From Tissierellales bacterium (GTDB taxonomy: Bacteria; Bacillota; Clostridia; Tissierellales; Sedimentibacteraceae), in NCBI GenBank assembly GCA_018433765.1, contig JAHDQO010000005.1, positions 62,001 through 126,000 of the forward strand: DNA of 64,000 nucleotides, given 5' to 3'. The position numbers and the translations under genes are program-made. Below, piece after piece: positions 5,956-39,572 of this stretch. The notes under the pieces are model-generated. The model was given only the letters and a program-made list of their open reading frames with translations, ran no database searches and was not told the origin of the DNA. Each line of letters begins with the position of its first letter. Within the stretch, counting starts at the first letter, position 1.

Positions 5956-6078
5956 ATGCTAAAATATTAACGACTCCGAGCTGTTTATCCTAAAGGAAAC
6001 TATGGATTAACAGTCGATAGGGAATAAGCTGGAAACGGTTATTCCTCCCGGTGTGGAAAGGAGAAAATATTTTAGTAT
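5956..6078 (+). promoter_or_regulatory. Moco-type (molybdenum/tungsten cofactor) riboswitch aptamer
   Basis: The leader has the signature blocks of the Moco RNA motif: CGACTCCGAGC at the 5' side and CCTCCCGGTGTGGAAAGGAG at the 3' side. P1 pairs CTCC with GGAG and can extend through ATGCTAAAATATT and AATATTTTAGTAT. Two internal stems are visible: CTGTT...AACAG around 5981-6012 and GGAATAA...TTATTCC around 6021-6044. An intrinsic terminator follows directly, so control is probably by premature termination. The downstream operon encodes a metal-oxyanion-type transporter, consistent with Moco or Tuco sensing. Motif recognition is from memory and was not tested with a covariance model. Confidence 0.78.
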
Positions 6079-6086
6079 TAAAAATT

Positions 6087-36570: not shown

Positions 36571-38376
36571 ATGAGCAATAATGCAGTGAAACGCAATCAA
36601 GTGCCTGCTGAATACAAATGGGATTTATCAAAAATCTTTAAAGATTATGATACTTGGAAAAAAGCCTTTTTAAATGTAACATCAGAAATTTCAGAAATCA
36701 AACAAGCTATAAGTAGAATGGATAAAAATATAGATAGCTTTGTTTATGCACTTGAAATAGTGAGCAGTACGAAAAGGAATTTTGATGATATAAAATGGTA
36801 TGCTAAGTTAAAATTTCAAGAAGATATGAATATTAGCATTCATCAAAACATGAATGATCAAGTATCAAATTTAGAAATTAAACTTGATAGTGTTGCATCT
36901 ACCTTACAAACAAAATTATTGTCAATGGATAAAACAATTATAGACAAATATATTTTAAAAGAGAAAAGATTAGAATCGTTTAAAATATTCATAAATAATA
37001 TACTCAGAAAAAAACCTCATACATTAACTGATAAAGAAGAAGAAATTTTATCAGGCACAAAAACACTAGCAATAATGCCTGAAAAAATTTTTGATATAGT
37101 TACTAATATGCAAATGAAGTTTCCGTCTATAAAAGATAATGATGGAAACTATATACAAATTAACAATATTGCTTATCAAACATTAATGTTTAATAATAAT
37201 AGAGAAGTTAGAAAGACTGCATATGAAAGTTTATATAATACATATGCAGAACAAAAACAGATTTTTGGTACAACACTTTTTTCATCAATGCAAGCTACAT
37301 CTGCAATTGCTAAAGCTAGAAATTATAACAGTGCTTTAGAAGCATCTTTATTTGAAGAAAACATAAGTATAAATACATATAACAGTCTTATAAATGCAGT
37401 TAAAGGCAGGATTAATATATTTCATAAATATTTAAGTCTAAGAAAAAAATGTCTTGGCTATGATAAATTATATATGTATGATATTCAAGTTCCTTTTGTA
37501 AAACAGAATAATATTAAGATTAAGTATAAGGATCTTAAAGAACTGGCATTAACAGTATTAAAATCTTTAGGTGAAGAGTATGTTAAAGATTTAAAAAATA
37601 GTTATGAAAAAGGCTGGATTGACGCTTTAAAAAATGATGGCAAATGTTTTTACCCATATTCAACTGCAACATATAATTCACAGCCATATGTATCTGTTAA
37701 TTATGATGAAACTGTTTTATCTGCATCTACATGGATTCATGAAATGGGACATGCTATGCATTATTATTATTCATTTAAGAATCAGCCCTATGCAAATTCA
37801 ATGTTTTCAATTTTTACGGCTGAAGTTGTAGCAATACTAAATGAGCAGTTATATGCAATGTATCTTATAAATAATTCTAGAACTAAAGCAGAAAAATTAC
37901 AATATATTAATCACTTTTTAGAACAATTCAGGATTGCTGTTTTTAGACAAACTATGTCAGCAGAATTTGAAAAATTATGTTATGAAAAAATAGAAAAGGG
38001 TAAAATAGTTACAGCAGATGACTACAGTAAAATATACTCCGAACTAAATAAATTTTACTATGGAAAAGATGTTGTAACAGATGAGTATATTTCTTTGGAT
38101 TGGAGCAGAATACCACATATGTATACATCGTTTTATCTTTATAAATATGCTGTAGGTTTTTCAGCAGCAGCAGCTCTATCAAAAAAATTAATTAATAAAA
38201 AAGACTGTGCCCAAGAGAAATATATTGAGCTACTTAAAAGCGGAGGAAATGACTTTCCTATTAATCAGCTTAAAAAAGTAGGTGTTGATATGGATACAAC
38301 AAAACCAATTGAGCAGGCATTGGATATATTTGAGAATTTAATAGATGAATTTGAAAAATTGCTAGATATAACTTAA
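36571..38376 (+). CDS. pepF: M3B family oligoendopeptidase F
   Basis: A 601-residue cytosolic zinc peptidase cleaving short oligopeptides. It opens with VPAEYKWDLSKIFKDYDTWK, typical of PepF. The zinc site is in WIHEMGHAMHYYYS (HExxH at His390), with the third ligand in the following FTAEVVAILNE helix. The C-terminal RIPHMYTSFYLYKYAVGFSAA is conserved. The gene has its own promoter and AAGGAGAG. It is the first of a long series of peptidases, separated from the rest by the kal unit. Confidence 0.94.
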   Translation: MSNNAVKRNQVPAEYKWDLSKIFKDYDTWKKAFLNVTSEISEIKQAISRMDKNIDSFVYALEIVSSTKRNFDDIKWYAKLKFQEDMNISIHQNMNDQVSNLEIKLDSVASTLQTKLLSMDKTIIDKYILKEKRLESFKIFINNILRKKPHTLTDKEEEILSGTKTLAIMPEKIFDIVTNMQMKFPSIKDNDGNYIQINNIAYQTLMFNNNREVRKTAYESLYNTYAEQKQIFGTTLFSSMQATSAIAKARNYNSALEASLFEENISINTYNSLINAVKGRINIFHKYLSLRKKCLGYDKLYMYDIQVPFVKQNNIKIKYKDLKELALTVLKSLGEEYVKDLKNSYEKGWIDALKNDGKCFYPYSTATYNSQPYVSVNYDETVLSASTWIHEMGHAMHYYYSFKNQPYANSMFSIFTAEVVAILNEQLYAMYLINNSRTKAEKLQYINHFLEQFRIAVFRQTMSAEFEKLCYEKIEKGKIVTADDYSKIYSELNKFYYGKDVVTDEYISLDWSRIPHMYTSFYLYKYAVGFSAAAALSKKLINKKDCAQEKYIELLKSGGNDFPINQLKKVGVDMDTTKPIEQALDIFENLIDEFEKLLDIT

Positions 38377-38417
38377 AAAATCAAAATTTATAGAGAAAAA
38401 GGTAAAAAGACAACATA

Positions 38418-38446
38418 TTGCATTTTTTTATATATTATGTTATACT
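38418..38446 (+). promoter_or_regulatory. Promoter of the lysine-riboswitch transcript
   Basis: TTGCAT and TATACT are separated by exactly 17 bases; the transcript would start about 30 bases before the aptamer. Confidence 0.6.
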
Positions 38447-38483
38447 ATTACAAAATAATATATAATTTTTATATATAAGTAGA

Positions 38484-38657
38484 AGATGAGGAGCGAAATA
38501 AAGGGTAGCTATAAGATGATAAGAAGAGACACCCTTCAACTGCTTAAAGTGAATTATTATTTCGCCGAAGAGTAATTTTAGGTACTTAGAATTATTCTGG
38601 GAGTTAAAAACAATTTTTAACTACTGTCATGCATAGGATATGCGTGGAGAGCGTTTT
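38484..38657 (+). promoter_or_regulatory. Lysine riboswitch aptamer (L-box)
   Basis: The conserved blocks appear in order: GATGAGGAGCG at the 5' side, then AAGGGTAGC...ACCCTT as the P2 region. Next come TTTCGCCGAAG, the stem AGTAATTTT...AGAATTATTCTGGG, the stem GTTAAAAA...TTTTTAAC, then ACTGTCATGCATAGGATATG and GTGGAGAGC. These match the five-helix lysine aptamer. Downstream are an antiterminator pairing (AATCGTGCT at 38670 with AGCACTGATT at 38718) and a terminator. The regulated gene is catabolic (kal), so an activating response to lysine would make biological sense. Confidence 0.88.
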
Positions 38658-38714
38658 TTAGCATTAAGTAATCGTGCTGAGGTTTATCTTATGTTCTATT
38701 TAGTTAGATATAAT

Positions 38715-38745
38715 GCGAGCACTGATTATGTGCTCGTTTTTATTA
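38715..38745 (+). terminator. Terminator of the lysine riboswitch
   Basis: GCGAGCAC and GTGCTCGT with loop TGATTAT, then TTTTATT. Its left arm can instead pair with AATCGTGCT 40 bases upstream, giving mutually exclusive structures. Confidence 0.88.
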
Positions 38746-38820
38746 TATTTATAATTGTAGTTAATAATCGATTTGCTATCATTATAAATCGACTAATATA
38801 ATATAAGGAGATGAGTTTAT

Positions 38821-39204
38821 ATGGAAGCTATGATAAGACTTCGTATGAGTGCTCATGACGCTCATTATGGAGGAGATCTTGTAGATGGTGCAAGAATGCT
38901 AGCTTTGTTTGGAGATGTAGCAACTGAGTTATTGATTAGACGTGATGGAGATGAAGGACTATTCAGAGCTTATGAAAACGTGGAGTTTTTAGCACCAGTT
39001 TATGCAGGAGATTATATTGAAGCAGTTGGTAAAATTGTAAAAGAAGGTAATTCATCAAGAAAAATGGAATTTGAAGCTAGAAAAGTTATAGCACCTAGAC
39101 CTGACATTAATGATTCTGCTTGTGATGTATTAAAAGAACCAGTTGTTGTATGTAGAGCGACTGGAACTTGTGTAGTTCCTAAAGATAAACAAAGAAATAA
39201 ATAG
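38821..39204 (+). CDS. kal: 3-aminobutyryl-CoA ammonia-lyase
   Basis: A 127-residue hotdog-fold enzyme of lysine fermentation that removes ammonia from L-3-aminobutyryl-CoA to give crotonyl-CoA. The sequence has the family start [21 protein letters not shown] and [17 protein letters not shown], and the length equals the characterised enzyme. It stands alone between a lysine riboswitch and a terminator; the other pathway genes (kamA, kamDE, kdd, kce) are not in the window. AAGGAG precedes the ATG. Confidence 0.9.
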
Positions 39205-39220
39205 ATATATAAATAATAAA

Positions 39221-39265
39221 AAATAACCTAATTAATTTTAAGTAAGTTAATTAGGTTATTTTTTA
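39221..39265 (+). terminator. Intrinsic terminator after kal
   Basis: AAATAACCTAATTAA and TTAATTAGGTTATTTTTT form a long stem with T tract, making kal monocistronic. Confidence 0.9.
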
Positions 39266-39572
39266 TTTCTGTAAATATGATTTATATAAAAATAATATAT
39301 TTCATACAAATATTAATATTCTTAAATAATACTAATTTTGTTTTCTTTTTAAATTAGTTAGTATTTTATCAATAAATATTTTTACTATAAATAAAAAAAT
39401 ATATTGTTTTTTTGATTTATATACTATTTGTTGAATTTGTAATAAACAATATTCTAAATATATAATAAGGTAAAGTTAATACATTCTATCATCTAATCTT
39501 ATAAGTTAAGACTTAAGAAAGAATTAATAAAGTTAAAAAACAGGAAAAGGTTTTAAAGAAGGGAGAAATAAT
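39266..39572. other. AT-rich intergenic region upstream of the esterase-tldDE genes
   Basis: I see no open frame with a ribosome site here. The near-palindrome TTAAGACTTAA lies around 39507 and a GAAGGGAG ribosome site is at the end. A promoter is expected, but no clear consensus pair stands out. Confidence 0.5.

Follow-up and report, generated by a model that had tools for sequence, protein, structure and literature searches.

The enzyme encoded by kal, 3-aminobutyryl-CoA ammonia lyase, acts in lysine breakdown, and repression of kal by lysine would be perverse. In the window considered here (the whole stretch of DNA that was analysed, 64,000 nucleotides), kal is preceded by a lysine riboswitch (L-box), which raises the question of whether lysine would switch the gene on or off. 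The first-pass annotation had placed an L-box, a terminator and a competing antiterminator ahead of kal alone, with a terminator of its own after the gene, and this arrangement is confirmed by the RF00168 match, the folds and the NF052388 match. The parts of the locus are as follows.

38418–38446, forward strand (+): putative sigma-70 promoter, TTGCAT (38418–38423), 17 nt, TATACT (38441–38446), read by eye
38476–38490, forward strand (+): 5' strand of helix P1', the rival of P1, forming nine plus five pairs with 38688–38702; in MFE folds
38478–38662, forward strand (+): lysine riboswitch aptamer RF00168, catabolic subclass; 78 bits, gathering score 30, E 1.1e-20
38480–38488, forward strand (+): 5' strand of P1 (strand 1), pairing with 38652–38660
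38652–38664, forward strand (+): 3' strand of P1 (38652–38660) with the overlapping 5' arm of the anti-antiterminator (strand 2, 38656–38664); from folds
38674–38682, forward strand (+): strand 3, the 3' arm of the anti-antiterminator hairpin, of which 38674–38678 (GUGCU) doubles as the antiterminator strand
38688–38702, forward strand (+): 3' strand of helix P1'; from ensemble folds
38715–38741, forward strand (+): intrinsic terminator, stem GCGAGCAC/GUGCUCGU, loop of 7, T-rich tract; its 5' arm is strand 4
38805–38810, forward strand (+): ribosome binding site AAGGAG, read by eye
38821–39204, forward strand (+): kal, 3-aminobutyryl-CoA ammonia lyase, 127 aa; NF052388 equivalog, 203 bits, cut-off 160
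39215–39267, forward strand (+): AT-rich terminator hairpin 3' of kal; −23.2 kcal/mol, z −7.87

Together these make up a transcription unit of promoter, aptamer, terminator, kal and terminator, of which the promoter part was read by eye alone: a consensus promoter scan returned 6 promoter-like sites against 6.4 in shuffles and does not list TTGCAT-17-TATACT, with which the start given in the first-pass annotation, 38418, coincides. The leader terminator (hairpin 38715–38737) is one of two terminator-like sites in 38360–39320, where shuffles average 0.1, the second being the same hairpin on the minus strand; the hairpin after kal is absent from the list of that scan, which requires three G-C pairs. 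A small AT-rich hairpin, ATCGATTT/AAATCGA at 38767–38794, was seen by eye between the leader terminator and the ribosome site. The gene upstream of the leader encodes oligoendopeptidase F (516 bits, cut-off 490.55), and the one downstream of kal is hydrolase-like by eye, an NCBIfam search of it giving no match.

The aptamer spans model positions 1–182 of the 182 in RF00168 and shows the five-helix architecture, and a score of 78 bits rules out a chance match as its explanation. A profile search of the genome itself recovers the same place. The leader, 291 nt long, has a folding energy of −80.8 kcal/mol (z −5.22), a stability equalled by none of 200 shuffles. The default Rfam scan of the whole 64 kb missed this L-box, as did a search for L-boxes in many genomes, and divergent catabolic L-boxes may be under-annotated owing to speed filters. 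What the default scan did list was a single Moco/tungsten-type riboswitch (RF01055, window positions 5962–6079 (+), 65 bits), which precedes three ORFs, one containing an Ig-like domain and two resembling, by eye, the substrate-binding protein and the permease of an importer of the siderophore/B12 type; this is possibly a molybdate or tungstate importer.

We propose that the element is a lysine-binding transcriptional ON switch for kal, a model to which we assign a probability of roughly 0.8. With the polymerase at 38664–38684 the aptamer would have folded and P1 would be closed. If lysine is bound, P1 would stay shut and its 3' strand would be barred from the hairpin that hides strand 3 (GUGCU, 38674–38678); the exposed strand 3 would then capture the terminator 5' arm (AGCAC, 38718–38722), and transcription would enter kal. 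Without lysine, hairpin 2-3 and P1' would displace P1, strand 3 would be masked, and the terminator would form and stop transcription before kal. We infer, for this scheme, that the ligand is lysine, that its binding keeps P1 closed and that the antiterminator outlives the passage of the polymerase. Activation rather than repression had already been suggested in the first-pass annotation, and both the ensemble folds and the comparison with other kal L-boxes and controls lend it support as a model.

The growing leader transcript was folded length by length as an ensemble, either free or with P1 held. P1 consists of nine pairs, in order UA, AU, GU, AU, AU, GU, AU, UG and GC, and the mean probability of its inner six pairs is 0.99 falling to 0.84 for transcript ends at 38664–38684. 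In the free fold, hairpin 2-3 (38656–38664 with 38674–38682) has a probability of 0.84–0.89 from 38688 on, and the nine-pair part of P1' of 0.96–0.99 from 38704 on. For ends at 38724–38732, the antiterminator (38674–38678 with 38718–38722) stands at 0.86–0.97 with P1 held and at 0.00 in the free fold, where the terminator, once completed, has a probability of 0.98–1.00. The same exchange is seen in the transcript 38453–38729: free, it gives 0.78 for P1', 0.80 for hairpin 2-3, 0.06 for P1 and 0.06 for the antiterminator; holding P1 gives the antiterminator 0.98, forbidding P1' gives P1 and the antiterminator 0.97 each, and forbidding hairpin 2-3 gives them 0.89 each. Just ahead of the terminator 3' arm the leader is close to two-state, holding either P1 and the antiterminator or P1' and hairpin 2-3, and the price of holding P1 at this stage is 2.0 to 5.1 kcal/mol, varying with the ends chosen.

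Closed P1 precludes the terminator in ensembles just before the terminator 3' arm exists, but not at full-length equilibrium. Because the full-length P1-held ensemble also prefers the terminator (0.96–0.99 from 38740 on), antitermination must be kinetic. The terminator 5' arm becomes less accessible when P1 is enforced (0.80 to 0.35), and its accessibility is unchanged, at 0.81, when the aptamer minus P1 is enforced. With a tighter definition of the arm, accessibility falls from 0.78 to 0.27, a fall matched by 3 of 300 dinucleotide shuffles of the 54-nt linker. Taken as isolated arms, strands 3 and 4 are unexceptional in their complementarity, which is equalled by 43 of 200 shuffles.

Comparing expression platforms across L-boxes had been put forward in the first-pass annotation as a check. 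Our controls (n = 31) were the L-box before dapA in the same genome and the 30 best-scoring other L-boxes fetched from the order (L039–L068, which include near-identical sequences). They precede uptake genes and one lysA-like gene, as judged by Pfam for 10 of the 31 and by eye from the first 60 residues for the rest; locus L061 is without an ORF. A terminator was detected in 28 of the 31 kal L-boxes and in 30 of the 31 controls. In 20 of these 28 kal elements, termed direct, the 3' strand of P1 serves as the terminator 5' arm, with an overlap of 9–14 nt, terminators of −14.0 to −27.8 kcal/mol, and 0 to −9.1 kcal/mol left for the part after P1; use of the P1 3' strand as a terminator arm is the simplest ON design. 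The terminator lies further downstream in the remaining eight, the focal element included, which are termed indirect, and six of them lose at least 0.28 of arm accessibility when P1 is enforced, with L073 and L037 unchanged. Among the 30 controls with a terminator, none overlaps P1, the largest fall is 0.14, 14 rise by at least 0.13 and the others are about unchanged. By the same rules 26 of 28 kal elements and 0 of 30 controls are ON-like, the terminator and accessibility thresholds for this first set having been chosen with those data in view. Under a laxer hairpin rule, a P1-overlapping hairpin whose U tract is poor appears in three of the 31 controls (L041, L046 and L048), and two kal elements without a terminator under the stricter rule (L202 and L195) become direct. 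Many controls have a hairpin that starts in the P1 3' strand but is without a U run.

The four-strand exchange proposed for the focal leader recurs in part among the other indirect elements. With P1 held, the helix between strands 3 and 4 has a probability of 0.43–0.86 in all eight; hairpin 2-3 forms in the free fold of six, and L037 and L073 pair strands 3 and 4 in both states. The focal hairpin 2-3 is weak, at −4.5 kcal/mol against −8.8 to −23.9 kcal/mol in the seven other indirect elements, and a hairpin search of the leaders did not list it. A measure of coupling gives values close to zero in most indirect elements, since at equilibrium the complete terminator prevails.

A later set of 27 loci, the best scores of a model (R2) built from the kal L-boxes, played no part in setting thresholds. 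Two of its three catabolic elements are direct, and the third, L205, is a kal element of the four-strand kind whose accessibility, like that of L073 and L037, is unchanged. Among the 24 others, 23 have a terminator, 17 rise by at least 0.10 and the largest fall is 0.17 (L215); one, L219, carries a P1-overlapping hairpin that is weak (−8.1 kcal/mol) and is followed by an ordinary terminator. The Fisher values for this set (1.7e-9 and 1.7e-14) overstate certainty, since related sequences are not independent. In these models ON logic is common to most kal L-boxes.

Seven kal leaders with two or more listed terminators were examined for a relay between them. In L121, L087 and L074 the 5' arm of terminator 2 is approximately a copy of the 5' arm of terminator 1 (that is, of the P1 3' strand), and none of 200 shuffles pairs the terminator 2 5' arm with the terminator 1 3' arm equally well. 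The same pairing is equalled by 3 of 200 shuffles in L139, and in L118, L079 and L094 it is no better than shuffles (35, 56 and 50 of 200, respectively). Holding P1 frees the 3' arm of terminator 1, which then lies on the 5' arm of terminator 2 with an occupancy of 0.99 in L121, 0.79 in L087, 0.74 in L074, 0.55 in L139, 0.48 in L118, 0.00 in L079 and 0.02 in L094. In some relatives one aptamer could, on this modelling, govern two terminators by relay. The four-strand plan of the focal leader follows the same logic, except that no clear U run comes after its first hairpin; any evolutionary order between the two plans is an inference. Among the literature matches listed for single-aptamer tandem terminators, the term 'tandem terminators' is absent.

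We aligned 62 aptamers (the focal one, 30 others before kal and the 31 controls), with Thermotoga maritima numbers placed by the Rfam consensus and not by structure. The conserved positions given in the available part of PMC3764141 include G9, A10, G11, G12, G14, C15, G77, C78, C79 and G80, and also A81, G114, G163 and C166. In our alignment, columns 10–13, 16–17, 136–140, 190–191, 282, 284 and 285 are identical in the focal and the 61 other aptamers. Loss of the lysine-contacting core had been named in the first-pass annotation as grounds for abandoning its reading; those pocket and junction positions of PMC3764141, as far as that part of the source lists them, that could be placed are conserved. 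One P1 pair of the focal aptamer is U·G where the 61 others have A-U. In the kal set 93.0% of cells are paired against 63.5% in shuffles, in an alignment fitted to that structure, and 46 of 52 pairs show changes on both sides.

Tertiary docking differs. The available part of PMC3764141 describes docking of L4 on P2 through A127 with A23-G69 and A126 with U24-G68; it gives the L4-P2 triple as fully conserved and regards this docking as crucial for attenuation. The focal aptamer does not show this docking arrangement. The first base of the AGUA motif is G in the focal aptamer and in 29 of the 30 other kal aptamers, and A in none of those 30 and in all 31 controls; the fourth base of GAAAGG is U in the focal aptamer, G or U in 30 of 30 kal aptamers and A in 31 of 31 controls, and its last base is A in the focal aptamer and G in 10 of 30 kal aptamers and in every control. 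In the A23 column there is a gap, of uncertain placement, in the focal and 19 of the 30 kal aptamers and an A in the 31 controls, and one L4 adenine is lost in the focal aptamer, kept in two of 30 kal aptamers and kept in 31 of 31 controls. The curated RF00168 model still accepts the docking-changed aptamers, which therefore constitute a subclass and are not excluded from the family.

A tree of the aptamer core, to be read as a drawing as it carries no support values, splits the kal L-boxes from those of uptake and synthesis. In it the focal aptamer falls among L073, L082, L080, L098, L100, L037 and L168, every one of which has the four-strand plan; the dapA L-box falls among the controls. A leave-one-out column score put the dapA L-box, whose P2 is mostly gaps, with the kal group; the docking columns, like the tree, place it with the controls. 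Scores of the catabolic model R2 do not separate the two lineages.

Among the 27 loci of the later set, 22 have the AGUA form and three GGUA, two being unread by the pattern. One GGUA locus lies before kal-kce, and the other two (L206 and L210) lie before a HemL-like transaminase (ORFs L206:113-1366 (−) and L210:132-1385 (−), with best NCBIfam matches below cut-offs). Both have a direct ON platform, and in L206 a piece of kce lies downstream of the HemL-like ORF. PMC3149608, in its available part, describes a HemL-like transaminase of 3-aminobutyryl-CoA, named Kat, that is encoded at the kal locus in other lysine fermenters, and the transaminase of L206 and L210 is possibly this enzyme. Since catabolic L-boxes also stand before such a gene, the lineage seems to follow lysine breakdown and not kal as such. 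A wider reading of these data, which we hold tentatively and would put a little short of an even chance, is that there are two deeply separate L-box lineages of opposite sign. The catabolic one, before kal and the Kat-type transaminase, would have kept its pocket, rebuilt its L4-P2 docking and come to turn genes ON. Its platforms would form one series, from a terminator on the P1 3' strand, by way of a duplicated relay in which the freed 3' arm of terminator 1 disarms terminator 2, to the focal form, whose first hairpin is without a U tract and acts as anti-antiterminator only.

The genome contains two L-boxes, the focal one and a canonical one before a dihydrodipicolinate synthase gene (dapA, PF00701) that is followed by a dapB-like ORF; it therefore has one for synthesis and one for breakdown. 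They form a natural pair in which the same ligand could lower synthesis and, through the ON-type kal element, raise breakdown. The focal L-box was considered as a copy of the dapA L-box; it belongs to the kal lineage, the dapA L-box falling among the controls in the core tree, and the switch was therefore not copied from there. Holding P1 barely moves the arm accessibility of the dapA L-box (0.44 to 0.46), whose antiterminator may, as judged by eye, capture the terminator 3' arm instead; since the accessibility measure is blind to 3'-arm capture, its OFF sign rests on analogy.

The first-pass annotation had also concluded that kal has split from the kam operon, which is true here. There is one match to kal in the genome, and the kam genes (kdd, kamA, kamD, kamE and kce, with two more ORFs) lie together without kal on another contig, C30 (locus L006); kamA matches TIGR03820 over its cut-off at 643 bits, and kdd, kamD, kamE and kce were given their presumed roles from their sequences. 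A second L-box before kamA, which it had suggested looking for, was not found: a search of L006–L008 with the L-box model R1 returned a sole row at E ≤ 1, of 8.8 bits, which rules out an L-box belonging to the kam operon itself, and the other L-box of the genome is the one before dapA. A scan for sigma-54 sites near the kam operon was at chance level (7 found, 5.7 expected). Locus L008 carries a second lysine 2,3-aminomutase-like gene (L008:2934-4181 (+), 470 bits, below the AblA cut-off of 525) near an ORF resembling, by eye, an alanyl-tRNA editing protein; this gene is perhaps a glutamate 2,3-aminomutase.

To place the solitary kal in context, kal was sought in 249 genomes of the order, 86 of which gave a match above the family cut-off. 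All 86 kal places were scanned with R1 (built from 22 L-boxes), and 84 of them have at least 450 nt upstream, L016 and L166 having less. An L-box precedes kal at eight of the 86, the focal place included. Nineteen other kal places belong to the focal family, and an L-box before kal was found at none of the 18 with enough upstream sequence. Among the 16 same-family relatives with about 1 kb downstream of kal, kce is missing there in 15 and present in one. With 15 of 16 relatives lacking kce after kal and 0 of 18 carrying the L-box, the split is either older than the genus or recurrent. Flanks were listed for five of the 19 places, at four of which an ORF upstream of kal resembles DnaJ by eye; of four neighbours of the focal kal, none was found at any of the 19. 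At one same-family kal (L158) a c-di-GMP-I riboswitch (L158:886-975 (−), 74.9 bits) lies directly after kal on the same strand and presumably serves the next gene. In a tree of KAL proteins the focal protein groups with those of L118, L117, L194, L127 and L204 (support 0.93) and not with its own family; deeper nodes near it have support of 0.22, 0.31 and 0.81, and the protein is short.

The 80 named kal loci examined from the GTDB collection are the best of at least 577, so their frequencies are not population estimates; five of the 80 have less than 450 nt upstream of kal. An L-box lies directly before kal at 23 of these best-scoring 80, and at all 23 what follows kal is kce, kdd or kamA. The usual place of the L-box is therefore the start of a kal-kce-kdd-kamA run, of which the focal locus has only the first gene. 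A solitary kal with an L-box is also found at L037, and at L168 the contig ends soon after kal. The arrangement had been treated as rare in the first-pass annotation; the available passages of PMC5584792 already give a lysine riboswitch before a single kal in Fusobacterium nucleatum, and 31 kal L-boxes, for the most part operon leaders, were collected here.

Three other explanations of the focal element have to be weighed against activation by lysine. If it were an ordinary OFF switch, lysine would close P1, break the antiterminator and halt transcription, so that kal was repressed. Given that kal degrades lysine, such repression would be perverse on pathway grounds, and the folds run the other way: the free leader has the terminator and an antiterminator at 0.00, it is holding P1 that makes the antiterminator, and the controls largely shift in the opposite direction or stay put. 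The equilibrium fold of the full-length, P1-held leader does retain the terminator, as an OFF switch would have it, and the signs demonstrated for lysine riboswitches, those of Bacillus subtilis and Escherichia coli, are OFF according to the available part of a 2024 review (PMC11477304). On balance we regard repression as unlikely.

Somewhat less probable again is an L-box that has decayed and lost its switching, the relic of an operon leader stranded ahead of a solitary kal. The absence of an L-box before kal in all 18 same-family relatives with enough upstream sequence would suit such a relic, as would the changed P1 pairs beside the pocket and a P1 weaker than its competing helices. Decay would not be expected, however, to leave 51 of 52 pairs of the aptamer model formed, both altered P1 pairs still paired on two sides, the placed pocket bases intact, and a linker that outperforms 297 of 300 shuffled versions. 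We give least credence to a variant aptamer for another ligand, such as beta-lysine or another intermediate of the pathway. The kal L-boxes are indeed a distinct lineage with coordinated changes in L4-P2 docking, but these changes affect tertiary docking, outside the pocket, and the pocket positions from the available part of PMC3764141 that could be placed are identical in the focal and in 30 of 30 other kal L-boxes. A switch by which lysine would turn kal on is the reading we prefer.

Catabolic L-boxes were reportedly first described by Rodionov in 2003. In the available passages of Mukherjee et al. 2017 (PMC5584792), a lysine riboswitch is placed before kal-kce in Clostridium sticklandii, before a single kal in Fusobacterium nucleatum and before pspF3-kal-kce in Thermoanaerobacter; the regulation of these genes is stated to be positive, with reference to a review by Serganov and Patel (2009). 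An L-box before kal is already known in kind; what is new beyond the papers found is the two ON designs (direct and four-strand), the rebuilt docking that marks an aptamer subclass, and the possible relay. In the literature searched, within which most subscription literature was unsearchable, no experiment on lysine binding by a catabolic L-box, or on termination at one, was seen, and no paper was found for lysine riboswitches together with lysine degradation, aminomutase or 3-aminobutyryl-CoA. With the present loci one can ask by what route a riboswitch family comes to change its sign, and whether a supposedly essential tertiary contact is lost along with it. Lysine leaders that activate would also be of use as parts in strains that produce lysine.

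The focal locus resembles the systems of PMC5584792 in having an L-box upstream of kal, in the solitary kal of F. nucleatum and in the positive regulation stated there; the passages available from that source are without platform anatomy, an aptamer subclass or an experiment. With the lysine riboswitches of synthesis and uptake it has in common the RF00168 aptamer family, the pocket and a transcriptional terminator. In those riboswitches, however, the terminator lies apart from P1 and in about half of our controls is more exposed when P1 is held, and they have the AGUA, GAAAGG and L4 AAUA docking bases that are changed in the kal lineage. A parallel in logic may be found in adenine riboswitches, which Mandal and Breaker are said to have shown in 2004 to activate by disrupting a terminator: a P1 closed by the ligand withholds a would-be terminator strand, much as in the direct kal elements. 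The adenine aptamer is a different one, and the focal switch would add to this scheme an exchange of strands among P1, anti-antiterminator, antiterminator and terminator.
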